NCBI RefSeq assembly: GCF_040361275.1
Contig: NZ_APNH01000003.1
Coordinates: 62,001-126,000, forward strand
DNA length: 64,000 nucleotides
DNA from: Salinisphaera sp. T31B1
GTDB lineage: Bacteria > Pseudomonadota > Gammaproteobacteria > Nevskiales > Salinisphaeraceae
Direction: 5' to 3'
Positions 2,531 to 25,299 of this stretch are shown here, in pieces. Both the position numbers and the translations under genes were made by a program. The notes beneath the pieces are model-generated. The model was given only the letters and a program-made list of their open reading frames with translations. It was not told the origin of the DNA and searched no databases. Positions within the stretch are counted from its first letter, which is position 1, and every line of letters starts with the position of its first letter.

Positions 2531-3835
2531 TCAGCCGAAGCTGTCGTGCACCATGTTCTGATACCAGGACCGCGCGTATTCGGATTCGGCCTGCCGGGTT
2601 GCGGCATCGGCCGCCAGAGCCGAAATGCCCCCGGCCTGCTGGATCGCTGCGATGCTATCGCCGTTCAAGGCATAGACCTCGGTCACGCTGATGCCGTAGT
2701 CGGGCGCGACCAGGCTGTAGCAGGCGTTGATCATCTGTGTATCGGCGGGCGTCTCGCCGGCCAGTTCGGCCGCCAGTGCGAACGCACAGATCTTGGCCTG
2801 CATGTTTGCCGCATAGGCGGACTTGGGCATGGGTTCGGCATGGGTCGCGTCGCCGATCACATGAATTCCGTCGTGGCCGGGCACCGAAAAGTCGTGTGCC
2901 GCTACCGGCACCCAGCCGGCTGTATCGGTCAGTCCGGCATCGGCGGCCAATCGGCCGGCGCGCTGCGGCGGAATGATATTGAGTACGTCGGCGGCCACTT
3001 CGTCTCCGCCGGCGGTCGTCACCCGGCGTGCGTCGACGTCCACGGCCACGACACGGGCGCCGTCGCGTCGGCCGCGCCATTCGACGCGGTCCGGATAGCG
3101 CGCATCCCAGCCGATCCGGAACAGCGGCTCCTTGGAGAAATGATCCTTTGCATCGAGCAGCAGGACGCGTGCGTTCGGCTTGTGCCGGGAGGCAAACCAG
3201 GCGATCAGGCTGGCTCGCTCGTAGGGCCCCGGCGGACAGCGATACGGATTGTCGGGCACGGTGATGACCACCTGGCCGTCGTCCGGCATGCGGCGCAGCT
3301 GATCGTGCAGCAGACCGATCTGGTATGCGCCGCCGGGCCAGGCATGTGGTACACGGTCGACCGCCTCGGGGCCATAGCCCTCGATCACCTGCCAGTCGAA
3401 GCCGATCCCCGGCGCGATCACCAGCCGGTCGCCGCCGATACGCCGACCGTCGGCCAGGCGAGCTTCCCGCCGTGTCGTATCCACGCCGTCGATCTCGGCA
3501 TGCACGACTTGTACGCCGGCCGCCGTCAGCGCGGCGTGGGTCTGGGTGATGCGCTCGACCGGGTTGAGGCCGCACACCACGGTGTTGCAGAACGGCCCGG
3601 TGACAAAACGCTGCTGGCGATCGATGAGCGTGATGTCGATCGAGGGCGCCAAACGTCGCAATGCCAGCGCGCAGCTGGCCCCGGCGAAACCGCCGCCGGC
3701 GATGACGACCTGCGGCCGCGGTGCACTCCGTACGATCGGTGCCACGCCGGTCGCGGCCAGCGCCGTAGCGCCGGTCAGGCCACGCAGCAGCGCGCGTCGA
3801 CGTTCATCGACCCGGCGTATCACGGGCTTCGTCAT
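2531..3835 (-). CDS. fccB: Flavocytochrome c sulfide dehydrogenase, flavoprotein subunit
   Basis: 434 aa. It oxidises sulfide to sulfur or polysulfide in the periplasm and passes electrons to the cytochrome subunit. An RRALLRGL twin-arginine-like leader precedes the FAD-binding motif GGGFAGA. Conserved FccB features are present: GPFCNTVVCGL in the region of covalent FAD attachment, Cys in YRCPPGPYERAS, and Cys in NACYSLVAPDYG, the last two forming the redox-active pair in the family. The start at 3835 is preferred because the frame to 3895 adds a basic, non-signal extension. Its 5' end overlaps fccA by 32 bases. Confidence 0.88.
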   Translation of the reverse strand: MTKPVIRRVDERRRALLRGLTGATALAATGVAPIVRSAPRPQVVIAGGGFAGASCALALRRLAPSIDITLIDRQQRFVTGPFCNTVVCGLNPVERITQTHAALTAAGVQVVHAEIDGVDTTRREARLADGRRIGGDRLVIAPGIGFDWQVIEGYGPEAVDRVPHAWPGGAYQIGLLHDQLRRMPDDGQVVITVPDNPYRCPPGPYERASLIAWFASRHKPNARVLLLDAKDHFSKEPLFRIGWDARYPDRVEWRGRRDGARVVAVDVDARRVTTAGGDEVAADVLNIIPPQRAGRLAADAGLTDTAGWVPVAAHDFSVPGHDGIHVIGDATHAEPMPKSAYAANMQAKICAFALAAELAGETPADTQMINACYSLVAPDYGISVTEVYALNGDSIAAIQQAGGISALAADAATRQAESEYARSWYQNMVHDSFG

Positions 3836-4145
3836 GGCTTGTCTCGCGGCCTGTCTGCTGCGCGAAATAGGCGGCCAGAGCGGCCGTACGGGCATCGTCG
3901 TAGCCGGGGGCGATACGATTCATGATCGTGCCCCGGCCTTGCTTGAATGCCTGCATGCGCTGGATGAACACGTGGGTATCCATGCCCGCCAGCGAGGGGA
4001 TGGCGCCTGTGCTGCGGCCGTCGGTTCCGTGACAGGCTGTACAGGCCGCGGCGGTCTGGGCGATCGGCGCGTCCGCGCTCATTGCCGCCCACGGGGTCGC
4101 CGCAATTCCTAGTGCAACAAACTGTAGTAGGCAACGGTTCATCAT
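3804..4145 (-). CDS. fccA: Cytochrome c subunit of flavocytochrome c sulfide dehydrogenase
   Basis: 113 aa with a Sec-type signal peptide (about residues 1-23) and one haem motif CTACH at residues 35-39. Met75 in TIMNRIAPGY is the likely axial ligand. It accepts electrons from FccB and hands them to the respiratory chain. The single haem and small size match short FccA proteins rather than the dihaem form of purple sulfur bacteria. The last 15 or so residues are charged and unusual, and they are encoded in the overlap with fccB. The start could be either of two adjacent ATG codons (4145 or 4142). Confidence 0.85.
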   Translation of the reverse strand: MMNRCLLQFVALGIAATPWAAMSADAPIAQTAAACTACHGTDGRSTGAIPSLAGMDTHVFIQRMQAFKQGRGTIMNRIAPGYDDARTAALAAYFAQQTGRETSHDEARDTPGR

Positions 4146-6222: not shown

Positions 6223-7061
6223 GCGTTGAATCACCTAACGGCGTGTCGCCTGTCACCGACGGGTTGCATATCGTCATCCGGGAGAAGCGTTTCGGCCGGA
6301 CGCCGGTGATCGGGCCGGTCGATTTTCAGGCCGCGGCCGGCGAGTTCGTGGCCGTGGTGGGGCCATCGGGCGCCGGCAAGAGCACGTTGCTGAGCCTGGT
6401 CGCCGGCCTGGACGACGACTACGACGGCGAGATCACCTGGAACGGCGAGCCGCTGTCCACGCCGGGTCGTTCGCCGGCGCGGCTGGGCATGATGTTTCAA
6501 GAGCCCAGGCTCATGCCCTGGCTCAGCGCGCTGGACAATGTCCGGTTGGTGGAGTCCGGCCGCCGTGCCGGCGAACCGGGCTTTATCTCCCGAGCTGTGG
6601 AACTGCTCGAAGAAGTGGGTCTCGGCCAGGCGCTGGACGTCTGGCCGAATCATCTGTCCGGGGGCATGCAGCGACGGGTTGCGCTGGCTCGTGCGTTCAC
6701 GGTCGAACCGCGTCTGCTGCTCATGGACGAGCCGTTCGTATCCCTGGACATGCCCACCGGCAACCGCCTTCGCCAATCGCTGCTGGGACTGTGCGAGCGC
6801 CACCGGCCGCTGGTGCTGTTCGTCACCCATGATTTGCGCGAAGCGCTGGCGCTGGCCGATCGCATTCTGTTCATGGGCGACACGCCGGCGCGTGTCATGC
6901 TCGACTATCGGGTCGACATACCGCGCAATCGCAACCTCGAAAGCGCCGAGGTTGCACAGGCCCAGCAGGCGCTTTTGGGACGTTATCCCGACCTGCTGTC
7001 AGGCATACTTCAGGACAGGCCCGACGAGGCGGCCTGCGATTATAACGAGGACAACCGATGA
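6219..7061 (+). CDS. ABC transporter ATP-binding protein, NitT/TauT type
   Basis: 280 aa. Walker A is GPSGAGKST, the Q-loop is FQEPRLMPW, the signature is LSGGMQRRVALARA, Walker B is LLLMDEPF, and the switch His lies in VTHDLREAL. These are typical of SsuB/TauB ATPases. The C-terminal 50 residues are acidic and less conserved. ATGA overlaps join it to the permease before it and to the second ATPase gene after it, so both ABC systems are translated from one messenger. Confidence 0.9.
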   Translation: MSVESPNGVSPVTDGLHIVIREKRFGRTPVIGPVDFQAAAGEFVAVVGPSGAGKSTLLSLVAGLDDDYDGEITWNGEPLSTPGRSPARLGMMFQEPRLMPWLSALDNVRLVESGRRAGEPGFISRAVELLEEVGLGQALDVWPNHLSGGMQRRVALARAFTVEPRLLLMDEPFVSLDMPTGNRLRQSLLGLCERHRPLVLFVTHDLREALALADRILFMGDTPARVMLDYRVDIPRNRNLESAEVAQAQQALLGRYPDLLSGILQDRPDEAACDYNEDNR

Positions 7062-7825
7062 GCGACGCGCAATCCCCGGCGGTGGCGCTGTCGGTCGACC
7101 GGGTCAGCAAATCCTATGGCAGCCTGAAGGCACTGGACGAGCTGTCGTTGACCGTGCCCAGGGGCGAGTTCGTGGCACTGCTGGGCCCCAACGGCGCCGG
7201 CAAGAGCACTCTGTTTCAGCTGCTGACCGGGTTGTTCGTGCCCGATACCGGCGAAATCGAGGTGGCTGGCCACGACATGCGCCGCGATGCCCGCGCAGCC
7301 CTGGCCAAGCTGGGCGTGGTCTTCCAACAGCCCACGCTCGACCTGGACCTTTCGGTCATCGCCAACCTGCGTTTTCATGCTCGACTGCACGGCATGGGCC
7401 GAAGCGCGCGTACGCGTATCGACGATGAGCTTGCGCGTATCGGTCAGGCCGAGCGGGCACGGGATCCGGCGCGTGCGCTGTCCGGCGGCAACCGGCGCAA
7501 GATCGAGCTTGCGCGGGCGCTGCTGCACGAGCCGTCGCTGCTGCTCATGGATGAGCCCACGGTAGGGCTCGATCCGGGCTCGCGCGAACTGCTGCTGGAT
7601 TATGTTCACCAACTGTGTCGCGAACGCGGCATGGGCGTGCTCTGGGCGACCCATCTGGTCGATGAAGCCGAACGCGCCCACCGGGTGATCGTGCTTCACA
7701 AGGGCCGGCGCATCGCGGTGGATACGCCGCGCGCGCTATGCGAACAGACCGATACGACATCGCTGGGCGAGGCCTTTCTGGCTCTGACCGGCGAAGCACC
7801 ACGAAAAAAAGAGGAGACCGTCTGA
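7058..7825 (+). CDS. ABC ATPase of PQQ-dependent alcohol dehydrogenase system
   Basis: 255 aa. Walker A GPNGAGKST, Q-loop FQQPTLDLDLSV, signature LSGGNRRKIELARALL, Walker B LLLMDEPT and the ATHLVDEAE switch region are all intact. The signature and the following Asp-loop belong to the ABC-2 (exporter-like) group, unlike the neighbouring SsuB-type ATPase. The gene order ATPase, beta-propeller, binding protein, ABC-2 permease is the one known beside quinoprotein alcohol dehydrogenases (ped/exa clusters). It presumably energises the permease at 10134. The transported molecule is not known for this family. Confidence 0.87.
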   Translation: MSDAQSPAVALSVDRVSKSYGSLKALDELSLTVPRGEFVALLGPNGAGKSTLFQLLTGLFVPDTGEIEVAGHDMRRDARAALAKLGVVFQQPTLDLDLSVIANLRFHARLHGMGRSARTRIDDELARIGQAERARDPARALSGGNRRKIELARALLHEPSLLLMDEPTVGLDPGSRELLLDYVHQLCRERGMGVLWATHLVDEAERAHRVIVLHKGRRIAVDTPRALCEQTDTTSLGEAFLALTGEAPRKKEETV

Positions 7826-8823
7826 TGCGAGTCCGTACATTGCTGCCCGGCCTGGCGGTGGCCGCCGGGCTTTTGACCAGTCCGGCCCTTTGGGCGGCCG
7901 GCACGGGCCATGTGTTCGTCTCCAGCGAGGACGACGATATCGTGACCGTGTTCGACGGCAAGACCATGGAGCCGGTCGGCCGGATCAAGACCGAGGAAAG
8001 GCCGCGCTGGCTGGCGTTTTCGCCCGATCATACGAAACTCTATGTCGCGGCCGGCGACGGCGATGCCATCGACATCATCGACGTTGCGCAGATGAAGGTC
8101 ACCGGCCGCATACCCGATATCGATGACCCGGAGATCTTCGCCATCGGTGCCTCGGGCGAGCGTCTGTATATCTCCAACGAGGACGACGCCCAGTTCACCA
8201 TCTACGATCTGGGCTCGAAAAAGGTGATCGCGCGTATCGATGTCGGTCAGGAGCCGGAGGGCGTGCTCGCGACCCCGGATGGCAAGACCGCCTATGTCAC
8301 CTCGGAAGTGGCCAACATGGTCCATCGGGTCGATCTGGCCTCCCACGAGATCGTGGCCAACATCGTGGTCGGCAACCGGCCGCGCCGTTTTGCTCTGACC
8401 GAGGACGGCAAGCATCTGTGGGTGACCAACGAGCTGTCGGGCTCGGTGAGCATCATCGACACCGATACCAATAAGGTTGTCGACACGATCAAGTTCGAGC
8501 CAAAGGGTTTCCGCGCCGAGGACGTCACACCCGTAGGCATCGCGCTGTCCAAGGATGGCAAGCAGGCGTTTGTGACGCTCGGCCGGGCCAACCATGTCGC
8601 GTTCGTCGACACCGCAAGCCACGAGGTCGAAGACTATGTCCTGGTCGGTGCGCGCGCGTGGGGCGTGGCGCAATCCAACGATGGCAAGCAGCTGTACGTG
8701 ACCAACGGCTTGTCCGATGATCTGTCGATCGTCGATATCGCGGACAAGAAACAGCTGCGCTCGATTCCGGCCGGCCGGCGCCCGCATAGTGTGGTCGTGG
8801 ACACCGAGGCTGGCGGCTCATGA
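7825..8823 (+). CDS. YVTN beta-propeller protein linked to PQQ-dependent catabolism
   Basis: 332 aa with a signal peptide cleaved near residue 25 (ALWAAG). The mature part is a series of about seven repeats of the YVTN type, visible as LYVAAGDGDAIDIID, AYVTSEVANMVHRVD, LWVTNELSGSVSIID and LYVTNGLSDDLSIVD. It is a periplasmic beta-propeller of the family called PQQ-dependent catabolism-associated beta-propeller protein. Its start overlaps the ATPase stop (TGATG) and its stop overlaps the next start. It may bind a quinoprotein, cofactor or metal; the function is not established. Confidence 0.88.
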   Translation: MRVRTLLPGLAVAAGLLTSPALWAAGTGHVFVSSEDDDIVTVFDGKTMEPVGRIKTEERPRWLAFSPDHTKLYVAAGDGDAIDIIDVAQMKVTGRIPDIDDPEIFAIGASGERLYISNEDDAQFTIYDLGSKKVIARIDVGQEPEGVLATPDGKTAYVTSEVANMVHRVDLASHEIVANIVVGNRPRRFALTEDGKHLWVTNELSGSVSIIDTDTNKVVDTIKFEPKGFRAEDVTPVGIALSKDGKQAFVTLGRANHVAFVDTASHEVEDYVLVGARAWGVAQSNDGKQLYVTNGLSDDLSIVDIADKKQLRSIPAGRRPHSVVVDTEAGGS

Positions 8824-10118
8824 GCGGCCGGCGCGCACGCAACGACCTCGTCGCGCGCCTGTGTCGGCCGGTCTGGTGGTTGTTGATAGCGGGCATGGCG
8901 ACGCTCCCGGTCCATGCGCAGGACAGTTTGCCCGAGGCCGGGTCGGCTGCGCCCTCGGCGGCTGCCCAGGCGACGCCGGAGTCGGCCGGGCCCAGACCTT
9001 TTGCGTTCGGCTATATCGGTTGGGACGATGATCCGCGCTATTCGGAGGCACGGACCGACCAGCGCTTCCAGGGCGAGCCCTGGGGGCGCCCATTGGCCGG
9101 CGCCGAGGTCGCGCTCGACGAGTCGAAGTTCCCCGGCATCGCCGCGGGGGTGAAATTCTCGCTGGACGATCAGCTGGTGGCCAACACCAGCGCCGCGATC
9201 GCCGCAATCAAGCGGATGCAGACCCAGGGCACGCATTTCGTGTTGCTCGACCTGCCGGCCGGAACGGTCGCGCGAATCGCCGACGAGTTCGACGATCAGG
9301 ATCTGACGTTTTTCAACGTCGCCGCCAGCGACGACCGCCTGCGAGGCGCGCATTGCCGGGCCGATCTGCTGCACACCATTCCCAGCGATGCCATGCGTAA
9401 CGATGCGCTGGCCCAGTATCTGGTCTCGCGGCAGTGGAGCCGCGTGCTGGTGCTGCGCGGCCCCGAACCGGCCGACGCGGTGGTCGCACGTTCGTTTGCC
9501 CGCTCGGCCAAGCGCTTCGGGCTCGATATCGTGGCCACGCGCGACTTCATTCTGGGTAACAACCCGCGCGAACGCGAACAGAACAATCCGAAGTTGATCA
9601 CTTCGGGTGTGGATTACGACGTGGTCTATATCGCCGACACGCAGGGCGAGTTCTCGCGCTCGGCCAATTTCGCAGTCCAGCATCCTCGCCCGGTCGTCGG
9701 CGCTGCCGGACTGGTCGCCGAAGCCTGGCACTGGTCGTGGAACAAGCACGGTGCCCGCCAGCTCAACAACCGCCTCGAGCGCAAGGCCGACCGGCCGATG
9801 ACCGGCTACGACTGGGCGGCCTGGGCGGCGGTCAAGGCGATCGTCGCCGGCGTGCAGCGTACCGGCTCGACCGATTACGCCGCGCTGCGGCGATACATTC
9901 TCAGCGATCAGATCGATCTCGACGGCTTCAAGGGCTTTCGCATGGCCTTTCGCGATTTCAACGGCCAGCTCGGCCAGCCGATGCTGCTGTCCACGGGCAA
10001 CTGGGTGGTGGCGGTTGCGCCACTGGAGGGTTTTCTCGACCCGAAGAACTACCTGAACACCCTGGGCATGGATGCGCGCGAGAGCGCTTGCCGTGCGGCT
10101 TTCGGGCACGACTCATGA
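8820..10118 (+). CDS. Periplasmic binding protein of PQQ-dependent alcohol dehydrogenase ABC system
   Basis: 432 aa. A signal peptide (hydrophobic about residues 17-35, ending in VHAQ) is followed by a Pro/Ala/Ser linker and a two-lobed type-I periplasmic binding fold like the LivJ/LivK group. Sequence typical of the PQQ-linked subfamily includes FGYIGWDDDPRYSEART near the start of the mature part and YDWAAWAAVKAIV near residue 330. It overlaps the propeller gene by four bases and precedes the permease by 15. It is odd that a binding protein should partner an ABC-2 permease, which usually exports. Confidence 0.86.
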   Translation: MSGRRARNDLVARLCRPVWWLLIAGMATLPVHAQDSLPEAGSAAPSAAAQATPESAGPRPFAFGYIGWDDDPRYSEARTDQRFQGEPWGRPLAGAEVALDESKFPGIAAGVKFSLDDQLVANTSAAIAAIKRMQTQGTHFVLLDLPAGTVARIADEFDDQDLTFFNVAASDDRLRGAHCRADLLHTIPSDAMRNDALAQYLVSRQWSRVLVLRGPEPADAVVARSFARSAKRFGLDIVATRDFILGNNPREREQNNPKLITSGVDYDVVYIADTQGEFSRSANFAVQHPRPVVGAAGLVAEAWHWSWNKHGARQLNNRLERKADRPMTGYDWAAWAAVKAIVAGVQRTGSTDYAALRRYILSDQIDLDGFKGFRMAFRDFNGQLGQPMLLSTGNWVVAVAPLEGFLDPKNYLNTLGMDARESACRAAFGHDS

Positions 10119-10133
10119 GCAAGGAGCGCTGTC

Positions 10134-10949
10134 ATGGCACGCGCTAGTCATATCGGTCAAGCACTGCTGGCGGTCTCCTCGCGCGAGACGGTGAAGTTCC
10201 TGCATCAGCGGGGCCGACTGGCATCGGCCGTGGTTCGTCCGAGCCTGTGGCTGTTGATCTTTGCCGCCGGCTTCAAGAACGTTTTCGGTATCTCGGTGCT
10301 ACCGCCCTACGACAGCTATATCGAATACCAGGTCTACGTCGTGCCGGGGCTGCTGGGCATGGTGCTTCTATTCAACGGCATGCAATCGTCGCTGGCCATG
10401 GTCTACGATCGCGAAATGGGTCTGATGCGGCTGCTGCTGACCGCACCGCTGCCGCGTTCGGTGCTGCTGGCTTGCAAGCTGGCCGCCGGTACGTTCCTGT
10501 CGGTGTTGCAGGCCTATGCGTTCCTGATCGTTTGTGCGTTGTTCGGCGTCGATCTGCCGTGGTGGCCCGGTCTGTTGACCGTTCTGCCGGCCTTGATGCT
10601 GACCGGGCTGATGCTGGGCGCACTCGGATTGTTGCTGTCGGTCTATATCAAGCAGCTCGAGAATTTCGCCGGCACCATGAATTTCGTGATCTTTCCGATG
10701 TTCTTTCTCTCTCCGGCGCTCTACCCGCTGTGGAAGCTCAAGGAGTCCGGGGCTCAGGTCATCTACCAGCTCTCCAGGATCAATCCATTCACCCATGGGG
10801 TGGAACTGGTGAGATTCGCCTTCTATGGTCAGATCAACTGGGTCGCGGCGGCCGTGGTCTCCGGCTCGCTGGTGGTGTTCTTTGCCATTGCGGTCTGGGG
10901 TTACGACCCGCAGCGGGGTCTGGTGCGGCGCAAGCGCCAGGGCGGTTGA
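10134..10949 (+). CDS. ABC-2 type permease, PedC-like
   Basis: 271 aa with six predicted transmembrane helices. It contains the ABC-2 permease signature region around residues 85-120 (MGLMRLLLTAPLPRSVLL) and a C-terminal half rich in aromatic residues. The ribosome site AAGGAG is eight bases before the ATG. It matches the permease seen with phenylethanol and ethanol quinoprotein dehydrogenases (PedC). With the ATPase at 7058 it would make a homodimeric ABC-2 transporter. It is the last gene of the operon that begins at 4472. Confidence 0.86.
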   Translation: MARASHIGQALLAVSSRETVKFLHQRGRLASAVVRPSLWLLIFAAGFKNVFGISVLPPYDSYIEYQVYVVPGLLGMVLLFNGMQSSLAMVYDREMGLMRLLLTAPLPRSVLLACKLAAGTFLSVLQAYAFLIVCALFGVDLPWWPGLLTVLPALMLTGLMLGALGLLLSVYIKQLENFAGTMNFVIFPMFFLSPALYPLWKLKESGAQVIYQLSRINPFTHGVELVRFAFYGQINWVAAAVVSGSLVVFFAIAVWGYDPQRGLVRRKRQGG

Positions 10950-11045: not shown

Positions 11046-11073
11046 AAAAGCCCGTGCGAGCTAGCGCACGGGC
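11046..11073 (-). terminator. Intrinsic terminator after PepSY gene
   Basis: A perfect nine-base stem, GCCCGTGCG pairing with CGCACGGGC (11050-11058 with 11065-11073) around a six-base loop, is followed on the minus strand by TTTT. It ends the PepSY/TonB-receptor transcript 40 bases after the PepSY stop codon. Confidence 0.85.
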
Positions 11074-11112
11074 TGGCAACATGGCTGGGCGTTTGTTCGT
11101 CCGGGCCGTCGG

Positions 11113-11709
11113 TCAGGTTCCGCTGTCCGGCGAGCCGGACGCCGCGGCGCCGCCATCGACTTCTTCAGACGGTTCGTGCCCGATCTGCCACGTCTCGACC
11201 GACAACTCGATGATGTCGCCGGTAACGGCATCCACCTCGACCTTGAGCTCGTTGTCCTGGCCGTCCTGGGCCACGTCGATCTCGTAGGTGGGCGAGCCGT
11301 CGGACTCGATTTCGTATTCGACTTCGACGATCTCGCCACCGAAACGGTCGATCACTGTCTGGCGTGCCTGCGCTTCGGTGATCTTAGCCTGCCGGGCAAA
11401 CGCCTCGTCCTGGGGCGAGTCGGCCTCGGTTTCCAGCTCGTAGATATCGCCGGTGCGGGCGTTGCACATCAACTCCCATTCGGTGTCATCGTTATCGCGG
11501 ATTTCGATCTCGTAGGTTGGTGCGCCCGCCGGGCTCACGCTCAAAAATTCAACCTTCACGATATCGCCCTGACGCACGCTACGAGCGGATTCGATGCACT
11601 GCTCGAGCGGCACCAGGTCCGCGTTCTGTTTAGCGATCGCCGGTGCAGTAATCGCCATCATGGCCAGACTCGATACAGCGGCCAGTTGGCTCAATCGGTC
11701 GTTTATCAT
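11113..11709 (-). CDS. Secreted acidic protein with two PepSY repeats (LanPepSY-like candidate)
   Basis: 198 aa. A signal peptide (cleavage near APAIA-K, residue 26) shows export. The mature protein has two repeats, about residues 34-96 and 110-172, each with PTYEI followed by an acidic loop and TGDI-EL. This is the PepSY fold. The loops RDNDDTEWE and AQDGQDNE are rich in Asp, Asn and Glu and could bind a metal. Cys38 and Cys82 may form a disulfide. LanPepSY of Methylobacillus flagellatus, a lanthanide-binding protein, also has two PepSY domains. The context here (TonB receptor, PedS2/R2-like sensor, PQQ genes) makes the comparison worthwhile, but binding is unproven. Ribosome site AGGAGG. 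Confidence 0.82.
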   Translation of the reverse strand: MINDRLSQLAAVSSLAMMAITAPAIAKQNADLVPLEQCIESARSVRQGDIVKVEFLSVSPAGAPTYEIEIRDNDDTEWELMCNARTGDIYELETEADSPQDEAFARQAKITEAQARQTVIDRFGGEIVEVEYEIESDGSPTYEIDVAQDGQDNELKVEVDAVTGDIIELSVETWQIGHEPSEEVDGGAAASGSPDSGT

Positions 11710-11893
11710 GGTGTGGGTTGCCTCCTTGGTTTTATGCAGAACCTATGTATCTCGTCGCGCTTCGGCCAGGACTGGCCGCGTGGCGATTCGAGCGTGTGAA
11801 CAAGAAGCAGGCGACTCCATCGATGACTCCAAGAGGGAGAGTCGAACCATCGAAAGGCCGCCTGCGGAGGAGACTCGTGAAAACGGTTGCGCG

Positions 11894-14239
11894 CTAGAGC
11901 TCGATACGAACGCCGCCCCAGATACCGAACGGGGCGCCCGGCCCGATGAAACGATTAGCGTCCTCGTAGCGATCGCCTTCGAGGACCTCGTCGGATTCGC
12001 CGTACAGGCCGAACGTCTCGTAATCGGAGTCCAGCAGGTTGTTGACGCGCACGAAGGTCGTAATGCGATCGGTCCAGGCGTAGGAGGCGTTCGCGTTGAC
12101 GATCGCGTAGCCGCTGATGTCTTCGTTGTCGGTGTTCGACTCGTCGCCTCGATAGATCTGATCGCCGTTGCCGACCACCTGCACGCCCAGCTTGAGCTTG
12201 TCAGTGGCCAGCCAGTCGACGCCCACGTTGAACAGGTGCTCCGGGATCAACGGAATACGATCACCTGATTCGACCTGCTGGGTCGGGTCGTCGCCGGGGG
12301 CGGCGTCCTCGTCGGCCAGCGGATGGTTCGGCGAGTTGGTCACGAACGGATCGCGGAATTCCGCGTTGAGATAGGTGTAGTTCGCCGACAGCAGGAAGCG
12401 TTCCAGAAACTGCCAGTCCACGCCCAGCTCGATGCCCTGGCGACGGGTCTTGCCGACGTTGTCGAAATAGCCCTCGAAGCGAGATTCGGCGGCAATGAAC
12501 AGGATATCGTCCTGGTTGTCGGAGCGGAACGCCGAGGCACGCCAGTGCAGCGTGCCGGACCCGCCGCGAAGACCCAGCTCGTAGGTGGTGGTCACGACCT
12601 GATCCAGGGGCGGATCGTCCACGAAGCCGTTGGGCAGGCGACAGGGCGCATCCGGATTCGCACAGGTCAGCTCGACCGGCGAGGGGGCACGTGAGGATTG
12701 CGAGATGCTGCCGAACGTAGTCAGGTGATCGTTGATCTCGTAGGTCAGGCCGCCGGCCAGATTCAGGCGCTTGAACTCGTGATCGCCGCTGAGGCTCAGA
12801 TCGGCCCCGTCATCGTCGTCCCCGCCTTCGAAGTTCACCTCCGGGCTGGTGTCGTGCAGGGAGATAGCGGTACGGTTGTAGCGGCCGGCGATAGTGCCTT
12901 CCAGCCGGTCGGTGATCGGCACGCGCTGGAGGAAGAACAGGCTGGCCGTACTGTTGCGGGCATTGACGCCGGTCAACGATTCACCGGAAATGATGCCGCT
13001 GCCTACGGTGCCGCGGTCGTCGGTCAGACGCGCCAGCTCGGTCTGCTGAAAGAACTGGCTGCTGCCGTAGTCGATACTCGCGCCCACGATGAGATCGCCG
13101 CCCAGAACGCCGTCCTGGCGCCCCTGTACGTTCAGGCCGAAACCATCCTCCTTGGTCTGCGAGGTGTTCTGGGTGCCGCCGAGCACGTTCGGCCCGACCG
13201 CGACCGCGTTGCCGTTGGCGTCAAAGATGATTTCTTCTTCGCCGCCGCCTTCCTCGGTCTCACACAGCAGCCCGGCGTTACCAGCCTCTTCACAGGCACC
13301 GAATTCCGATCCGTCGCCATTGAAGGTGTTGATTTCGTTACGGCGGTAGTAGGCACCCCAGGCAAGCGTGAAATCCTCGGTGACGTCCTCGGTGCCCCGC
13401 AGGTTGAACATCACCATGTCCGGCTTGGTCTCGTCCGGGTAGGTGAACACCGAATCCCGACCTTCGGCATCGGCCAGCTCGCGCGGGATCGCACCGTTGC
13501 CCCGCAGCGTGTTGTCGGCCGCGGTGATCGAGAAGTCCAGCGTGCCGTTTTCGGTGAGCGTGGAAAACTGCGTGAACAGCTGGGTGACGTCCGAATCGGA
13601 GAAGTCGCGCCAGCCGTCTTCGGACATGCCCTGGGCGGCGAAATACCAGCCGGTCTCGCCGTCGTTGCCACCGGCCTGAAAATAACCGCCGAAGCGTCCG
13701 AAGCTGCCGCCGAACAGCTCCAGTTCGCGCCCCTGGTAAGTAAAGCCGGTCTTGGTCCTGACCGAGACCGCGCCGCCCAGCGTGTTCTGACCGAACACCG
13801 GATTGGAACCGGGAATCAGATCGATGGAATCGATGGCAACCTGAGGTATCAGATCCCAGTTGACGGTATCGCCGAACGGTTCGTTGATCCGTACTCCGTC
13901 CTGGTAGATGGACAAGCCCTGGGGCAGACCCAGCAACGGCGACGCGGTATAGCCGCGATAGTTCAGGTCCGGCTGGAACGGGTTATTGACAGCGTCGTTG
14001 ACATGCACGCTGCCCAGTTCGTCACGCAGGAACTCGTTGATGTTGAGCGTCTCGGATCGACGGATATCGTCCGCGTTCGCGCTCTGTACGTTGGCCGGGT
14101 ATCGATCGGCATCGACGTCGCTGCCGGAAAACGGCGTGGCGCCGATCACTTCGATGCCGCCGAGCGCGGAATCCTGAGCCCAGGCCCCGGTACTGATCAC
14201 AACGCCAGTGACAAGGCACAGGCCCCCTTTGATATCCAT
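11894..14239 (-). CDS. TonB-dependent outer membrane receptor
   Basis: 781 aa with a signal peptide (ending AWAQ, residue 22), a plug domain (about 45-165, with NEPFGDTVNWDLIP and NTLGGAVSV) and a 22-strand barrel ending in Leu. No clear TonB box of the ETVIV type is seen; GGIEVIGATP at residues 27-36 is the likely one. Two strongly acidic loops stand out: about 326-340 (ETEEGGGEEE) and 471-480 (GGDDDDGAD). It would import a scarce metal complex or other solute. Its place between a PedS2/R2-like system and a double PepSY protein suggests a lanthanide complex or PQQ as ligand (inference). Ribosome site AAGGGGGAG. Confidence 0.88.
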   Translation of the reverse strand: MDIKGGLCLVTGVVISTGAWAQDSALGGIEVIGATPFSGSDVDADRYPANVQSANADDIRRSETLNINEFLRDELGSVHVNDAVNNPFQPDLNYRGYTASPLLGLPQGLSIYQDGVRINEPFGDTVNWDLIPQVAIDSIDLIPGSNPVFGQNTLGGAVSVRTKTGFTYQGRELELFGGSFGRFGGYFQAGGNDGETGWYFAAQGMSEDGWRDFSDSDVTQLFTQFSTLTENGTLDFSITAADNTLRGNGAIPRELADAEGRDSVFTYPDETKPDMVMFNLRGTEDVTEDFTLAWGAYYRRNEINTFNGDGSEFGACEEAGNAGLLCETEEGGGEEEIIFDANGNAVAVGPNVLGGTQNTSQTKEDGFGLNVQGRQDGVLGGDLIVGASIDYGSSQFFQQTELARLTDDRGTVGSGIISGESLTGVNARNSTASLFFLQRVPITDRLEGTIAGRYNRTAISLHDTSPEVNFEGGDDDDGADLSLSGDHEFKRLNLAGGLTYEINDHLTTFGSISQSSRAPSPVELTCANPDAPCRLPNGFVDDPPLDQVVTTTYELGLRGGSGTLHWRASAFRSDNQDDILFIAAESRFEGYFDNVGKTRRQGIELGVDWQFLERFLLSANYTYLNAEFRDPFVTNSPNHPLADEDAAPGDDPTQQVESGDRIPLIPEHLFNVGVDWLATDKLKLGVQVVGNGDQIYRGDESNTDNEDISGYAIVNANASYAWTDRITTFVRVNNLLDSDYETFGLYGESDEVLEGDRYEDANRFIGPGAPFGIWGGVRIEL

Positions 14240-14328
14240 CGCTCCCCCTTATTTATTTAGTATTCGCCACGATCGTCATCGAGTGTCCGCCGTTCGATCA
14301 GCGGTATTCAATGGGAAAAATTCCCGTT

Positions 14329-15639
14329 TTATGCCGGCCGGTTGTCCCGGGGGATACGAGCCAATACACATGTTCCGCGCCCGGGTCGGCTGATCAGCTC
14401 GAAGCGCCCGTTCATCAGCGCGATGCGCTCGGCCATGCCCGACAGTCCCAAGCCGCGGTGACGCGCCGTCGTATCGAAGCCGCGTCCGTCGTCGCGTATT
14501 TCAGCCTCGACCCGCACGTCATCGGTGTGCAGGCGTACTGTGATCTGCCGGGCCTGCGCATGGCGCAGGGCGTTGGTCAGCGCCTCCTGGATCAGCCGGA
14601 AGACGTGGATCGCCACCGTCGGGGCGAGATCGTCGTCGTTGCCCTGGCATTCGAACTCGATATGAATATCCGGCCGGCTTCGATGCCAGCGGGCGATATG
14701 ATCCTCCAGCGCGGCCATCAGACCGAGTTCGTCGAGCCCCGGCGGGCGCAGCCGGCGCATCATCTGCCGCGCCTGGTCGTAGATATGTGCCGCCACCTCG
14801 GCGATCGCCTCGGCCGACTCGGCCACACCGGCGGGCAAGCGATCGCCGCGTGCCAGAATGCCAGCGGCGTCGGCGCGTATGGCGGTGAGACTCTGGCCGA
14901 GCTCGTCGTGCAGTTCACGGGCGAGATTGCGTCGTTCGTCTTCCTGGATACGCAACGAATGATCGCGCAGGCGATGGTTTTCTCGGCGCGCATCGGCCAG
15001 CGTTGCGGCCATGTGATTGAACTGGCGGGCGATGCCGTCGAACTCCGGGAGCGAGAACGCCGGCAGCCGGGTCTCGTAGTCGCCATGCTCGATCTGCTGG
15101 AGCGCGGCATCGATCCGGCGTACGGGGACCATGGCGCGGCCCATCAGGACATAGGCGATCGCCACGATCGCAAGATAGAAGATCAGCAGCAGCGCGAGCA
15201 GGCCGCGGGTGTCGTGCCATGTTTCGTCGATCTCGTCGTCGGGGTCGGCCAGAATACGGATCTGCAGATCGTGCGCGACCTCGATGCGTCGCTCGGGCAG
15301 CGACGCCGGACGGGTCAGGGCCGCGAACCAGGCCGGCGCACGCAGGGCGGGCTTGGACGGGCAGGCCGGGGCCGACGAGCCCGGCGACACCAAGGACAGA
15401 CACAGATGCCGAAGATGGCCGATCCGTTCCAGGCGTCGAGCGGCGACCAGACTGGCTTCGCCGTCGGCCAGGCTGGCCTCGACGATATCCGATGCCAGCG
15501 TCACACTCGAATGCATTTCGTCGGCGATGGCTTCATGCGCATTGGCCACGATCATCCAGCCGGCTGCCAGAAGCACACCGGCGGCCAGCAGAGATACCGA
15601 AATCATCAATCGCTGGCGAAGGCGCAGACGCTTGTCCAT
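14329..15639 (-). CDS. Membrane sensor histidine kinase, NarX/UhpB (HisKA_3) type, PedS2-like
   Basis: 436 aa. Two membrane helices (about 12-32 and 145-167) bracket a periplasmic domain of roughly 110 residues that contains Cys and several Pro. A HAMP segment follows (about 168-220), then the HisKA_3 phosphoacceptor region (ERRNLARELHDELGQSLTAIRADA, His near residue 242) and an HATPase domain with LIQEALTNALRHA and DDGRGF. It lies 18 bases after the response regulator gene. In Pseudomonas putida a similar system, PedS2/PedR2, controls the switch between calcium and lanthanide alcohol dehydrogenases; the setting here makes the same role plausible. Confidence 0.87.
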   Translation of the reverse strand: MDKRLRLRQRLMISVSLLAAGVLLAAGWMIVANAHEAIADEMHSSVTLASDIVEASLADGEASLVAARRLERIGHLRHLCLSLVSPGSSAPACPSKPALRAPAWFAALTRPASLPERRIEVAHDLQIRILADPDDEIDETWHDTRGLLALLLIFYLAIVAIAYVLMGRAMVPVRRIDAALQQIEHGDYETRLPAFSLPEFDGIARQFNHMAATLADARRENHRLRDHSLRIQEDERRNLARELHDELGQSLTAIRADAAGILARGDRLPAGVAESAEAIAEVAAHIYDQARQMMRRLRPPGLDELGLMAALEDHIARWHRSRPDIHIEFECQGNDDDLAPTVAIHVFRLIQEALTNALRHAQARQITVRLHTDDVRVEAEIRDDGRGFDTTARHRGLGLSGMAERIALMNGRFELISRPGRGTCVLARIPRDNRPA

Positions 15640-15657
15640 GCGAGCCGGCCGCTTTGG

Positions 15658-16290
15658 TCAGAGTGCGACCACGCCGGTGCGTATGGCCAGCCGGGTCAGA
15701 TCGGCTGTGCCGCTCGCGCCCAGCTTGGTCCGCAGTCGGGTCGTGTGATTCGCGACCGTCTTGGGGCTGAGAAACAGCTCCTCGGCAATGGCATTCACGC
15801 TCGCACCGGAAGCCAGCAATCGGAAGATCTCGAATTCGCGTGACGACAGGCAGGCCAGAGGATTGGCGGCGTCGGGGCCGGCCTCGTCGGCCAGTTCGGC
15901 GTCGATATAGCGTTGTCCGGTGGCCACCGCTCGCACGGCGTTCACGAGTACCTCGGACACCGCACGCTTGCTGATATAGCCGGTCGCCCCCGCGGTCAGC
16001 GCGCGGCGGACGAATATCTGTTCTTCGTGTACGGAGAACACGAGTACACGCACGCCCGGGTAGCGCGAGAGAATACGCTTTGTCGCCTCGATACCGCTCA
16101 TGCCCGGCAGCGACAGGTCCATCACGATGACGTGGATATCCAGGTCCCGGCACGCCGCGTAGGCGCGTTCGCCGCTGTCGGCTTCACCGACCACCTGGAT
16201 ATCGTCTGCGAGCTTGAGCAGCCGGCCATAGCCGGCCCGTACGACGGCGTGGTCATCGACCAGAAGCACGCGGATGGGCGTGGTCTGCAT
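15658..16290 (-). CDS. NarL/LuxR-type response regulator, PedR2-like
   Basis: 210 aa. The receiver has the acidic pair in LLVDDHAVVRAGY, the phosphorylation Asp in VIVMDLSLPGMSG and Lys in YISKRAV. A LuxR-type helix-turn-helix fills the C-terminus (SSREFEIFRLLASGASVNAIAEELFLSPKTVANH, written in part). The start at 16290 follows a GGAGGA ribosome site; the longer frame to 16428 has no support. It is the first gene of a likely operon with the kinase, the TonB receptor and the PepSY protein. Confidence 0.88.
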   Translation of the reverse strand: MQTTPIRVLLVDDHAVVRAGYGRLLKLADDIQVVGEADSGERAYAACRDLDIHVIVMDLSLPGMSGIEATKRILSRYPGVRVLVFSVHEEQIFVRRALTAGATGYISKRAVSEVLVNAVRAVATGQRYIDAELADEAGPDAANPLACLSSREFEIFRLLASGASVNAIAEELFLSPKTVANHTTRLRTKLGASGTADLTRLAIRTGVVAL

Positions 16291-16501: not shown

Positions 16502-18013
16502 CTACAACGATACCGTCACGGTCTTGGTTTCGGTGTAGTTGTTGAGCACCTGTGCGCCCATTTCCCGACCCCAGCCGGACTGCTTGAATCCGCCGAACGG
16601 CAGGGCCGCATCGAAGATGTTGTAGCAGTTGACCCAGACCGTGCCGGCGCGCAGCTTGTTGGCCAGCTTGTGAGCACGACCGATATCCTGCGTCCACACG
16701 CCGGATGCCAGCCCGAAGACCGTATCGTTGGCGCGCTTGATCAATTCGGCGTCCAGGTCCGAGAACCGGGTCGCGGTGACGACCGGACCGAAGATCTCTT
16801 CCTGATAGACCTTCATGTCGTCCTTGACGTCAACGAGCACCGTCGGCTTGACGAAATAGCCGTCGCCGTCTCCCTTCTCGCCGCCCGCCGCTGCGCGGGC
16901 ACCCTGGCTCTTGCCGGATTCGAGATACCCCGTCACGCGGTCGAACTGGGTACGCGAGACCAGCGGCCCCATCTGGGTTTCCGGATCCAGGCCCGGGCCC
17001 AGCTTGATGTTGCGAGCGAACTCGGACACACCCTCGACCACCTCATCGTAGATCTTGTCGTGTACGAAAAGCCGCGAACCGGCGGCACAGCACTGGCCAT
17101 GATTGAAGAAGATGGCGTTGGCCGCCCCCGGAATCGCCTTTTCCAGGTCGGCGTCGTCGAGGATGATGTTCGGCGACTTGCCGCCCAGTTCCAGCGACAC
17201 TTTCTTGAGGTTGCCCTTGGCGGCGTCGACGATCAGACGGCCGACTTCGGTGGACCCGGTGAAGGCGATCTTATCGACCATCGGGTGTGCGGCAAGCGGG
17301 GCACCGGCCTCTTCGCCGAAACCGGTGATGATGTTGACGACACCGTCCGGTACGCCAGCCTCCTGCATGATCTCGGCCAACTTGAGACCTGACAACGGCG
17401 TCTCTTCGGCCAGTTTCATGACGATGGTGTTACCGGTCGCCAGCGCCGGTGCCAGCTTCCAGGCTGCCATCAGCAGCGGGAAATTCCAGGGGATGATCTG
17501 GCCACACACGCCCACCGGCTCGCGCCGGGTATAGGCATGCCATTCGGCGCCGGGCGCGTACGGCACGGTCGGACTGATCAACTCGCCGTTGAGCTTGGTC
17601 GCCCAGCCCGCCATATAACGAAACATCTCGGCGGCCAGCGGTACATCGGCGGCACGTGCAATCGAGATCGGCTTGCCGTTGTCCAGCGACTCGAGCTGCG
17701 CCAGTTCTTCCTGATAATGCATGATCAGGTCGCCGATCTTCCAGACGATCTGCTGGCGCTCGGCGGGAGACATGCGGGTCCAGGGCCCGTCGTCGAATGC
17801 CTTGCGGGCGGCCTTCACCGCCTTGTCGACGTCGGCCTTGCCGGCCGACTGGGCATGCGCGACGACCTGATCGTTGGATGGATTGTAGACATCGAACGTT
17901 TCGCCCGACTCGGCGGCGACCCACTGGCCGCCGATGAGCATCTTGCGCGGCGTGTCGATGAATTGCTTGACGCTGGGTTCCAGCGCGACTTCAGAAGCGG
18001 CTACTGCACACAT
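16502..18013 (-). CDS. NAD-dependent aldehyde dehydrogenase, PedI/ExaC-like
   Basis: 503 aa, the usual length for the ALDH superfamily. The general base Glu lies in LELGGKSPN (about residue 275), the catalytic Cys in FFNHGQCCAAGSR (about residue 309), the NAD-binding region is PWNFPL and FTGSTEVG, and the C-terminal PFGGFKQSGWGRE is intact. It would oxidise the aldehyde made by a quinoprotein alcohol dehydrogenase to the acid, as PedI and ExaC do. A sigma-54 promoter and an activator-like palindrome lie upstream, and the divergent neighbour is a sigma-54 activator. The substrate range cannot be told from sequence. Confidence 0.9.
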   Translation of the reverse strand: MCAVAASEVALEPSVKQFIDTPRKMLIGGQWVAAESGETFDVYNPSNDQVVAHAQSAGKADVDKAVKAARKAFDDGPWTRMSPAERQQIVWKIGDLIMHYQEELAQLESLDNGKPISIARAADVPLAAEMFRYMAGWATKLNGELISPTVPYAPGAEWHAYTRREPVGVCGQIIPWNFPLLMAAWKLAPALATGNTIVMKLAEETPLSGLKLAEIMQEAGVPDGVVNIITGFGEEAGAPLAAHPMVDKIAFTGSTEVGRLIVDAAKGNLKKVSLELGGKSPNIILDDADLEKAIPGAANAIFFNHGQCCAAGSRLFVHDKIYDEVVEGVSEFARNIKLGPGLDPETQMGPLVSRTQFDRVTGYLESGKSQGARAAAGGEKGDGDGYFVKPTVLVDVKDDMKVYQEEIFGPVVTATRFSDLDAELIKRANDTVFGLASGVWTQDIGRAHKLANKLRAGTVWVNCYNIFDAALPFGGFKQSGWGREMGAQVLNNYTETKTVTVSL

Positions 18014-18211: not shown

Positions 18212-18391
18212 CACGGAACTGGCGCAACCGTGTTGCATCGCTGCGTCGGCGCCTGTCCGGACCAGTTGTGCGCGGTGTGCAAACCTGCTACAAAAATCCA
18301 AAGGTTCGTATGCCCGCCTCTTAAGCGGGACGGCCCAGAAAAAGAAAAAATGACGGAGCGGCTCGACCGCACCGCATCAGGAGGAGACACC

Positions 18392-20356
<1,965 letters not shown>

Positions 20357-20460: not shown

Positions 20461-21372
20461 ATGTATATCAGGGTTCTGGGATCGGCCGCGGGCGGCGGCT
20501 TTCCGCAATGGAACACCAACGTCGGCCTGAACCGGGCTTTCCACGAGGGCGCGACCCGAGCTCGCGCCCGTACCCAGTCGTCGATCGCGGTCAGCGCCGA
20601 TGGCGAACGCTGGTTGCTGGTCAACGCGTCGCCCGATGTCCGGCAGCAGATTCTGGATTTCCCCGCGCTGCGCCCGGCGCCGGAAACACGCGGTACCGGT
20701 ATCGGCGCCGTGCTGCTCATGGACAGCCAGATCGATCACGCCACCGGGCTGATCATTCTGCGCGAGGGCGATACGCTGCCCGTCTGGTCGACGCGCCCCG
20801 TCTACGAAGACCTCACTACCGGTCTGCCGCTGTTCAACGTGCTCTCACACTACTGTGGCGTGGACTGGCACGAGATCGATACCGCGGCCGATCATTTCGC
20901 AATCGACGGCGTACCGGGGCTGTCGTTTCGTGCGGTCGAGCTGTCCTCGGCCGCGCCGCCGTATTCGCCGCACCGGGGCGACCCGCATCCCGGCGACAAC
21001 ATTGGCCTGGTCGTGACCGACGACGCCACCGGCGGCACGCTGTTCTATGCGCCCGGCCTCGGCGCGCCGGACGACACCATCGCCGCCGTCGCAAGGCAAT
21101 CGGATTGCCTGCTCGTGGACGGCACCTTCTTCACCGAAACCGAGATGATCGACCAGGGCGTGGGCGTGAAACCTGCGGCAGCGATGGGCCATCTGCCGCA
21201 GTCCGGCGAAAACGGCATGCTCGCCTGGCTGGCGAACTTTCCCGACAAGCGCCGGGTGCTCATCCATATCAACAACACCAATCCCATCCTCGACCCGGAC
21301 TCGCCGGAGCGTGCCACGGTCGAAAACGCCGGGGTGGAAGTCGCCTATGACGGTATGGAAATAAAGCTATGA
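20461..21372 (+). CDS. pqqB: Pyrroloquinoline quinone biosynthesis protein B
   Basis: 303 aa, the normal length. This metallo-beta-lactamase-fold protein is thought to hydroxylate the PqqA-derived intermediate. The start [18 protein letters not shown] is the family's hallmark N-terminus, and the metal-site region [13 protein letters not shown] and the late [10 protein letters not shown] are present. The ATG follows the site CAGGGGCAGG. A sigma-54 promoter lies 40 bases upstream. It overlaps pqqC by four bases. Confidence 0.97.
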
Positions 21373-22115
21373 GCGTTGCCAACGACGGTCAAAAGCCCTG
21401 GTCGCGTGACGAATTCGAAGCCCGCCTTCGGGCCAGGGGCGCGCGCTATCACATCCATCATCCCTACCACCGGATGATGCACGAAGGTCGCTGCACGCCG
21501 GATCAGATTCGTGGCTGGGTGCTCAACCGCTACTACTACCAGGTCTGTATTCCCATCAAGGATGCCAACGTGCTCGCCAACTGCCCGGACCCGGCCGCTC
21601 GCCAGCTCTGGGTTCAGCGCATCATCGACCACGACGGCGCGCCGGGCGAAACCGGCGGCATCGAAGCCTGGCTGATGCTGGCCGAAGCCACCGGCCTGGA
21701 TCGCGCGCGCGTCGCCAACCTCACTGACCTGCTGCCGGGCGTGCGTTTCGCCGTCGATGCCTATGTAAACTTCGCCCGGCGCGCGTCCTGGCAGGAAGCC
21801 GCCTGCTCGTCGCTCACCGAACTGTTCGCGCCGGAAATCCATCAGCAACGCCTGACCGGCTGGCCCGATCACTACCCGTGGATCGATGATTCCGGCCTGA
21901 GCTACTTCCGCAAGCGTCTGTCGGAAGCACGGCGCGATGTCGAACACGGCCTGCGGGTCACGCTGGGCCATTTCACCACCCGCGCCGAGCAGGAATACGC
22001 GCTATCGATTCTGCAGTTCAAGCTCGACGTGCTCTGGAGCATGCTCGATGCCATGTGGATGGCTTATGTCGAAGACCGGCCGCCGTATCACAGCTGCCCG
22101 GAGCCGCAGACATGA
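21369..22115 (+). CDS. pqqC: PQQ synthase (pyrroloquinoline-quinone synthase)
   Basis: 248 aa, typical length. PqqC is the cofactor-free oxidase that performs the last ring-forming and eight-electron oxidation step. Conserved segments include [11 protein letters not shown] near residue 32, [11 protein letters not shown], the stretch around RIIDHDG, and [13 protein letters not shown] near the C-terminus. It starts in the pqqB stop and ends overlapping pqqD, so BCD are translationally coupled. Confidence 0.97.
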
Positions 22116-22402
22116 GCGCCGGTGCCCCCGTTTCCGATAGCGCCGTGCCACAGATCACCCGTGGCCACCGCCTGCAGTTCGAACCGGCCCAGGACTGCCA
22201 CGTCCTGCTCTACCCGGAAGGCATGATCACGCTCAACGACAGCGCGGCCGAAATCCTGCAGCGCTGCGATGGCCAGCGGTCCGTACAGGCGATCTGCAAC
22301 GATCTGTCGGCCGCATTCGACGGGGCCGATGTTACGGCCGATGTGCACGCGTTCCTGAAGCTGGCAGCATCGCACGGCTGGATCGTGTTCGATCAGACGT
22401 AG
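22112..22402 (+). CDS. pqqD: PQQ biosynthesis peptide chaperone PqqD
   Basis: 96 aa. PqqD binds the PqqA peptide and presents it to the radical SAM enzyme PqqE. The family signature is visible in [23 protein letters not shown]. It begins with the ATGA overlap at the pqqC stop, which supports this start over the upstream one in the same frame. pqqE does not follow directly as in many clusters; it lies 1.7 kb away on the other strand. Confidence 0.95.
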
Positions 22403-24063: not shown

Positions 24064-25218
24064 TTAATTCGGGCCGTTTTGCCGGTGCAGCCGCTTCGAA
24101 TTCTTGGGATTGCGAAACACGATCGGCTGGGCGGTGGGCGCTTCGACAGGCTGTGCGTTCGCGCGCTCGACGGCGTCGGTCACAAGATGGTGCTCGGGCG
24201 ATTTCGCACACACGGGATCGGTGGCGTACATGTCGCCGGTGAGCATATAGGCCTGGCAGCGGCAGCCGCCGTAGTCCTTGGTTTTTTCCGAGCAGCTGCG
24301 ACAGGGTTCTTTCATCCAGTCGTAGCCGCGGAAATGATTGAAGGCGGGGGATTCGGCCCAGATCCACTCGATGTCGTGATCGACCACGTTCGGAAATTCC
24401 AGGCCGGGTAGCTGGCGCGCGGCATGGCAGGGCAGGGCCACGCCGTCCGGGGCGACGGTGAGGAAGATATCGCCCCAGCCGCTCATGCAGGCCTTGGGCC
24501 GGTCTTCGTAGTAGTCCGGCACCACGAAATACAGCTTCATCGCGCCGCCGCGCTCGCGGTATTCGGTGGTGACCCGTTCGGCATGTTCAAGCTGTTCGCG
24601 GGTGGGCATGAGCGCGTCGCGGTTGTGCCAGGCCCAGCCGTAGTACTGGGTGTTGGCCAGTTCTACATAGTCGGCGTCGAGCGCTTCGGCCATGGCGATG
24701 ATCTCTTCGATATCGTCGATGTTCTTTCGGTGCAGCACGATGTTGAGCACCATCGGATAACCGTGGCGCTTGATCGAGCGGGCCATGTCCTTCTTCTTCT
24801 CGAAGCTGTCGGTGCCGCCGAGGAAATTGTTCATTTCGGCGTTGCTGGCCTGGAAGCTGATCTGGATATGATCGAGCCCGGCCTCGGCCAGACGGGCGAC
24901 CCGGTCATCGTCCATGCCGATGCCGGAAGTGATCAGATTGGAGTAGAAACCCAGCCGCCGGCCTTCGGCCACGATCTCTTCGAGGTCCTGCCGGACCAGC
25001 GGCTCACCGCCGGACAGGCCCAACTGGGCCGCCCCCATCGCGCGGGCCTGGCGCAGAACTTTCTTCCAGTCTTCGGTGCCGATCTCGCGACCGATCCGGG
25101 CCATTTCGGTGGGATTGCTGCAATACGGACACTGCAACGGACAGGCGTAGGTCAGCTCGGCCAGCAACCAGAGCGGTCGGGCCGGGGTAACGCCATCGTG
25201 TCGCGTGGGCAGATCCAT
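24064..25218 (-). CDS. pqqE: PqqA peptide cyclase, radical SAM enzyme
   Basis: 384 aa. PqqE joins Glu and Tyr of PqqA by a carbon-carbon bond. The radical SAM cluster motif CPLQCPYC lies near residue 25-32 after [13 protein letters not shown]. The SPASM domain in the C-terminal half has the auxiliary-cluster cysteines: [31 protein letters not shown] and DPVCAKS. The start at 25218 gives the normal N-terminus; no strong ribosome site is seen there, and a terminator-like hairpin lies 38 bases upstream, so expression may be kept below that of pqqA. Confidence 0.96.
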
Positions 25219-25250
25219 GGTATTGCTACTGACAGCTGGACGGACTGAGC

Positions 25251-25280
25251 GAAAAAGAAAGGGGCATGTAGCCCCTTTCT
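25251..25280 (-). terminator. Intrinsic terminator or attenuator between pqqA and pqqE
   Basis: A perfect ten-base stem (AGAAAGGGGC with GCCCCTTTCT, 25256-25265 and 25271-25280) with a five-base loop is followed on the minus strand by a run of T. It sits 20 bases after the pqqA stop. It should end most transcripts after pqqA and let a fraction read into pqqE, giving more precursor peptide than enzyme. Confidence 0.85.
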
Positions 25281-25299
25281 CCGACATCACAACCGATAA

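Follow-up and report, generated by a model that had tools for sequence, protein, structure and literature searches.

The 64,000-nucleotide window analysed here (contig NZ_APNH01000003.1 of Salinisphaera sp. T31B1, positions 62,001 to 126,000; C3:62001-126000 of Salinisphaera genome G000 in our numbering) carries on its minus strand a run of four genes, encoding a NarL-type response regulator, a sensor histidine kinase, a TonB-dependent receptor and a secreted protein with two PepSY domains. We read this run, with a probability of roughly 0.8, as a lanthanide (Ln) acquisition-and-sensing module that would serve PedH-type quinoprotein alcohol dehydrogenases. The reading is based on the observed genes and families, their synteny and co-occurrence, and shared palindromes. 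A first-pass annotation of the same DNA had already proposed a lanthanide role for the receptor and the PepSY protein; dehydrogenases with a DYD motif in the genome, homology of the PepSY protein to PDB entry 9vy3 and the co-occurrence pattern of the receptor support this proposal, with Ln as the presumed ligand of both proteins. The features of the module are:

15658..16284 (-) NarL-type response regulator (Pfam Response_reg and GerE)
14329..15639 (-) sensor histidine kinase with LapD/MoxY-like periplasmic domain, HAMP and HisKA_3 (Pfam, relatives, profile comparison)
14312..14326 (.) palindrome TGGGAAAAATTCCCG, reading CGGGAAnnnTTCCC on the minus strand; putative operator 73 bp 5' of the receptor start codon (ATG)
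11894..14239 (-) TonB-dependent receptor, its occurrence tracking genes of Ln-type alcohol dehydrogenases dependent on pyrroloquinoline quinone (PQQ-ADHs) (Pfam, co-occurrence, AlphaFold2 model)
11113..11709 (-) LanPepSY-like secreted double-PepSY protein, 198 residues (Pfam PepSY twice, phmmer, methylotroph homologues, AlphaFold2 model)
11049..11074 (-) intrinsic terminator 3' of the PepSY gene (10 pairs, T-rich tail)

Lanthanide-type enzymes, receptor and PepSY protein

Four PQQ-ADHs of this genome score above the family cut-off. Two of them (C3:55629 and C2:265146) carry the Ln-type motif WDYDG, with an extra aspartate two residues past the catalytic one (DxD), while the other two are of the calcium (Ca) type (C1:816811 with WDYAG, C1:1453314 with WDYTA). 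The search for a DxD quinoprotein dehydrogenase, on which the first-pass annotation had made its proposal depend, thus returned two DYD enzymes. The annotation had expected the dehydrogenase to be encoded elsewhere; Ln-type enzymes do exist, but the nearest, at C3:55629, lies only ~16 kb from the module, just beyond the window and in the same pqq/ped cluster, and is followed downstream by PedF-type, SoxYZ-like and SoxH-like genes. It is closest to PDB entries 6zcv and 6zcw ('Quinoprotein ethanol dehydrogenase'; E 1e-248 versus 1e-197 for 1flg), which we take to be PedH. Two Salinisphaera genomes, G003 and G006, are without the PedH-type enzyme and retain the second Ln enzyme only.

The receptor has the Pfam content of its family (Plug and TonB barrel) and is modelled by AlphaFold2 with a pLDDT of 87.5. 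To follow its occurrence, we used a panel of 61 genomes, consisting of this genome and 60 relatives, and counted the receptor as present where the best match exceeded 200 bits, the next genome scoring 52. By this measure it is found in 23 genomes, and the DxD motif in the same 23 plus one other (G020), so that 23 of the 24 genomes with the motif have the receptor, against none of the 37 without it. Among the 46 genomes with a PQQ-ADH above the cut-off, the receptor is present in 23/24 with the motif versus 0/22 without (Fisher 5.8e-12), and the split recurs inside two genera (g1, 7 versus 7; g12, 5 versus 6). A class-wide draw of 370 genomes gave the motif in 33 of 37 receptor carriers versus 20 of 333 others (Fisher 7e-29). 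The first form of our DxD pattern missed WDFDG and was widened; the widened form still misses NExWD[FY]DG, which on inspection is present in two of the four class-wide exceptions, i.e. these too have DxD. The receptor therefore tracks Ln-type enzymes rather than PQQ enzymes generally, and the association of its family with these enzymes offers a genome marker of Ln use. Gene neighbourhoods in other lineages fit into this picture: in Methylophaga, LanPepSY genes immediately follow the receptor homologue; in Methylobacterium nodulans, a single gene, for a NarL-type regulator, separates it from lanmodulin; and in Variovorax and Sphingobium its neighbour is a DFD-type dehydrogenase. The two acidic loops that the first-pass annotation had seen in the receptor exist as runs, EEGGGEEE around residue 330 and DDDD around 477, but none of their alignment columns is acidic in at least 80% of 47 homologues; such runs are weak evidence of Ln binding, and for their lack of conservation we dropped them.

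The PepSY protein, annotated earlier as secreted and acidic with two PepSY repeats, is indeed so: Pfam finds two PepSY stretches (2.1e-20), and the mature protein counts 42 aspartates and glutamates versus 11 lysines and arginines in 172 residues. The only PDB sequence it matches is 9vy3, represented by eight entries titled 'Propeptide, PepSY amd peptidase M4', with a phmmer E-value of 6e-34 over residues 33-179 and 47% identity over 144 residues. Judging from this name and from 84% identity to a homologue from Methylobacillus gramineus, 9vy3 is probably LanPepSY (LanP) of Methylobacillus flagellatus or a near relative. By sequence, the window protein is thus a full-length relative of a probable LanPepSY, the protein with which the earlier annotation had called for a comparison. 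Among 84,980 species genomes we found 66 homologous PepSY loci, nearly all in methylotroph genera, and the window protein keeps 20/20 acidic positions conserved in the family as well as two invariant cysteines. Its AlphaFold2 model (pLDDT 86) consists of two PepSY units, each a helix plus four strands. A fold search with this model (library to April 2026) returned other PepSY proteins at low TM-score, with 9vy3 not among the matches listed, and a search of a plasmid collection with the protein gave no match.

Pfam and a check of the open reading frames agree with the gene order and strand given earlier, and the terminator named there as the end of the module is confirmed as a hairpin at 11074-11049. 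The regulator starts with the ATG at 16284, the listed open reading frame opening further upstream. Gene order is kept among Salinisphaera relatives, with protein identities of 62-82%; kinase, regulator and receptor genes are neighbours in other lineages as well, and loci L154, L178/L240 and L227 hold the complete set of four within ~10 kb. The four-gene arrangement is not due to chance. A single transcript for the four genes, which are separated by gaps of 18 bp (regulator-kinase), 89 bp (kinase-receptor) and 184 bp (receptor-PepSY), is plausible, and the receptor gene has its own conserved palindrome upstream.

Sensor kinase and shared palindrome

The kinase combines HAMP, HisKA_3 and HATPase_c domains with a periplasmic sensor domain. 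Its relatives align end to end, with invariant sensor residues E41, R77, H78, P102, W104, E136 and W141; LapD_MoxY_N (PF16448) is matched by 15 of 21 homologues at E<=0.1, and in a profile comparison the Salinisphaera sensor domain aligns with the LapD_MoxY_N group at 99.4% probability. By homology, the sensor domain is thus LapD/MoxY-like, of the MxaY class, and probably not PedS2-like, the periplasmic domain of PedS2 being reported to differ from the LapD/MoxY class (PMC6115532). Of the 'PedR2/PedS2-like pair' in the first-pass annotation, a HAMP-HisKA_3 kinase with a NarL/LuxR-type regulator stands, while the sensor domain appears to belong to the other class. When we looked for PedS2 in genomes positive for DxD and negative for the receptor, we obtained kinase matches, none of them identifiable as PedS2. 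In MxaY, the exchange E147G renders the kinase blind to lanthanum (PMC5018670). Because the two glutamates of a conserved DEIxExW motif fall at 141-147 in methanotroph homologues, E147 probably sits in this motif, which corresponds to E136/E139 of the window kinase.

The palindrome GGGAAnnnTTCCC is found in the kinase-receptor gap of all seven receptor-bearing Salinisphaera genomes, in one of them with a mismatch, in flanks that differ. The exact form CGGGAAnnnTTCCC occurs at four places in the 4.36 Mb genome, of which two fall within reading frames and the other two precede the genes of the receptor and of the second Ln enzyme. With a matrix derived solely from the receptor sites, we scanned 179.7 kb of this genome and found six places scoring at least 11; these regions were chosen for holding module or dehydrogenase genes, so that the density is not a genome-wide one, as opposed to the exact-pattern count, which is. 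The four best sites (16-23 bits) stand in front of the genes for the receptor, the two Ln enzymes and the Ca enzyme with WDYAG, at distances of ~73-246 bp from the start codon, with CGGGAAnnnTTCCC exact or with one mismatch at each; the type II enzyme is without the palindrome. In the other Salinisphaera genomes the dehydrogenase palindromes are mostly degenerate, and G008 is without clear sites. We infer that the adjacent NarL-type regulator would bind the palindrome. G012 (L275:1602-3014) and, at the matching place, G011 have a further exact copy ~90 bp in front of another TonB receptor gene, whose product has a Plug domain.

The ped and pqq genes around the module

On the other side of the terminator, a PedA1A2BC-type operon (7058-10949, plus strand), which the first-pass annotation did not mention, converges on the PepSY gene. 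Two PQQ-dependent-ADH-system models, TIGR03863 and TIGR03866, score above their cut-offs here, beside an ATP-binding cassette (ABC) ATPase and a permease. Together with the genes upstream of the module, the setting is as follows:

7058..7825 (+) PedB-like ABC ATPase of the neighbouring transporter (position, conserved synteny)
7738..8823 (+) PedA2-like beta-propeller (TIGR03866, 342.6 bits, cut-off 287.3)
8820..10118 (+) PedA1-like ABC binding protein (TIGR03863, 416.3 bits, cut-off 413.6)
10134..10949 (+) PedC-like ABC permease (position, conserved synteny)
16502..18013 (-) aldehyde dehydrogenase, part of the alcohol oxidation cluster (Pfam, synteny)
18347..20356 (+) sigma-54 activator with GAF, AAA+ and Fis domains (Pfam, synteny)
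20461..22402 (+) pqqB, pqqC, pqqD (Pfam for pqqD; position and synteny for the other two)
24064..25290 (-) pqqE (TIGR02109, 2e-166)

Sigma-54-like promoters (TGGCACG-N4-TTGC, with one or two mismatches) lie before pqqB (20406), pqqE (25423), the aldehyde dehydrogenase gene (18132) and pedH (L014:10966); matches with two mismatches occur within genes too. The sequence suggests that the activator at 18347-20356 may target these same four genes and so form a second regulatory layer. A flavoprotein resembling that of flavocytochrome c sulfide dehydrogenase (window 2531-3895) and a small cytochrome c (3804-4145) adjoin the ped-like cluster, and a relative of the flavoprotein stands beside the kinase in locus L099. 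In genome G008 (L094:7746-11260), the interval from pedC to the PepSY gene holds genes for a third PQQ-ADH (motif WDFSG), a pentapeptide-repeat protein and PedF. Rfam and tRNA scans gave no matches.

Proposed mechanism, alternative explanations and known systems

In the mechanism we propose, the TonB receptor would carry Ln3+, bare or chelated, to the periplasm, where the LanPepSY-like protein would bind and buffer it, and the neighbouring PedA1A2BC-type transporter may do a further step. The LapD/MoxY-type kinase would read the periplasmic Ln status and, by way of the NarL-type regulator at CGGGAAnnnTTCCC sites, would set the expression of the receptor and of Ln- and Ca-type dehydrogenases. 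We infer both the direction of transport and the sign of regulation.

Several observations weigh against a lanthanide module. The co-occurrence statistics ignore the kinship of the genomes, and the DxD pattern matches anywhere in a genome, not each instance being confirmed inside a PQQ-ADH; two of the seven Salinisphaera genomes (G003 and G006; loci L097 and L096) have receptor, kinase and regulator but no PepSY gene; and the window kinase on its own fails Pfam for LapD_MoxY_N. Furthermore, the nearest solved fold to the receptor is the PQQ importer PqqU (YncD) with bound PQQ (9c4o, E 9.5e-50), for which reason we kept as an alternative an import of PQQ or of a PQQ-metal complex by the receptor, the module then serving PQQ enzymes in general and not lanthanide use. 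A weak sequence match to PqqU/YncD and the position of the receptor gene inside the pqq cluster point the same way, but identity to PqqU is only 17%, and the PqqU family model NF041535 gives the receptor 103 bits, far under its cut-off of 1200. Since the genome has pqqB, C, D and E, PQQ import would be less needed, and neither the absence of the receptor from all 22 relatives that have a PQQ-ADH without DxD nor the neighbourhood of its homologues to LanPepSY and lanmodulin would be expected of a general PQQ module; we therefore consider this explanation improbable. That the receptor instead takes up an iron or copper chelate, with a generic periplasmic PepSY protein and an incidental pqq linkage, seems very improbable: for copper, a TonB receptor with a neighbouring PepSY gene has been described (PMC12914433), and siderophore receptor models match the receptor weakly, but the copper case involves PepSY_TM, whereas the window protein is soluble, double and LanPepSY-like, and the receptor follows Ln-type enzymes over many genera and shares its palindrome with dehydrogenase genes.

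A further alternative concedes Ln to the receptor and the PepSY protein and concerns the two-component pair, which might sense alcohol, aldehyde or redox state and induce receptor and dehydrogenases with the substrate. In other genera the pair stands beside aldehyde dehydrogenase and PedH genes without an adjacent receptor (L105, L110, L111), and PedS2-PedR2 is present in pseudomonads that lack pedH, according to a review of the ped system (PMC12997753). However, the sensor domain belongs to the same class as that of MxaY, the kinase governing the Ln switch (PMC5018670), the pair recurs beside receptor and LanPepSY, and the palindrome precedes Ln enzymes, Ca enzyme and receptor alike, so that we regard a substrate sensor as possible, if rather unlikely. 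Within the lanthanide reading, the sensor could even detect Ln through the loaded or empty state of the LanPepSY-like protein instead of as the free metal, with CGGGAAnnnTTCCC co-ordinating the receptor with Ln- and Ca-type dehydrogenases, such that the four genes and the palindrome would form a closed circuit outside classic methylotrophs; this is speculative, and we think it unlikely. We did not find a sensor partner of LanPepSY or such a DNA operator for an Ln switch described in the literature, nor, in the literature searched, from which subscription papers were mostly out of reach, the linked four-gene combination, a MoxY-class sensor in it or the shared palindrome.

The individual parts have been described in methanol-eaters. 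It is an open question what MxaY-class sensors detect (PMC5018670), and outer-membrane Ln entry is stated to be unresolved for Pseudomonas putida (PMC12997753). By joining a candidate receptor, a LanPepSY-like protein, a MoxY-class sensor, a regulator and a candidate operator outside classic methylotrophs, the locus makes both Ln entry and MxaY-class sensing directly testable. The PepSY protein resembles LanPepSY in being small, of periplasmic type and rich in conserved aspartates and glutamates, and the description of the latter (secreted, ~19 kDa, two PepSY domains) also fits the 198-residue window protein, which differs from it in an acidic C-terminal tail and in being clustered with PedH and PedA1A2BC-like genes outside classic methylotrophs. 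With MxaY/MxaB of Methylotuvimicrobium buryatense (PMC5018670), the pair shares a kinase with a LapD/MoxY-class periplasmic domain, but it differs in having an adjacent regulator gene and linked enzymes of the PedH type; the motif of MxaY was placed via homologues. The lut cluster of Methylorubrum extorquens (LutA, LutB, LutE, LutF, LutH; PMC7391723, PMC9291206) likewise has a TonB receptor, an ABC transporter, a YVTN-type propeller and a binding protein near an Ln-dependent dehydrogenase, and Methylocella silvestris has LutBAH homologues beside xoxF1 (PMC7391723, PMC9291206). In the window, by contrast, a LanPepSY-type protein and a kinase-regulator pair replace lanmodulin, the enzyme is PedH-type and not XoxF-type, and the receptor is likened to LutH by gene context. 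The ped cluster of P. putida (PMC6115532, PMC12997753) similarly unites PedH, PedF, SoxYZ-like and PedA1A2BC-like proteins, an aldehyde dehydrogenase and a NarL/LuxR-type pair, and a LutH homologue is not among the proteins that the review names for strain KT2440 (PMC12997753); the Salinisphaera cluster differs from it in having the receptor and the LanPepSY-like protein, and in a sensor domain that appears MoxY-like.

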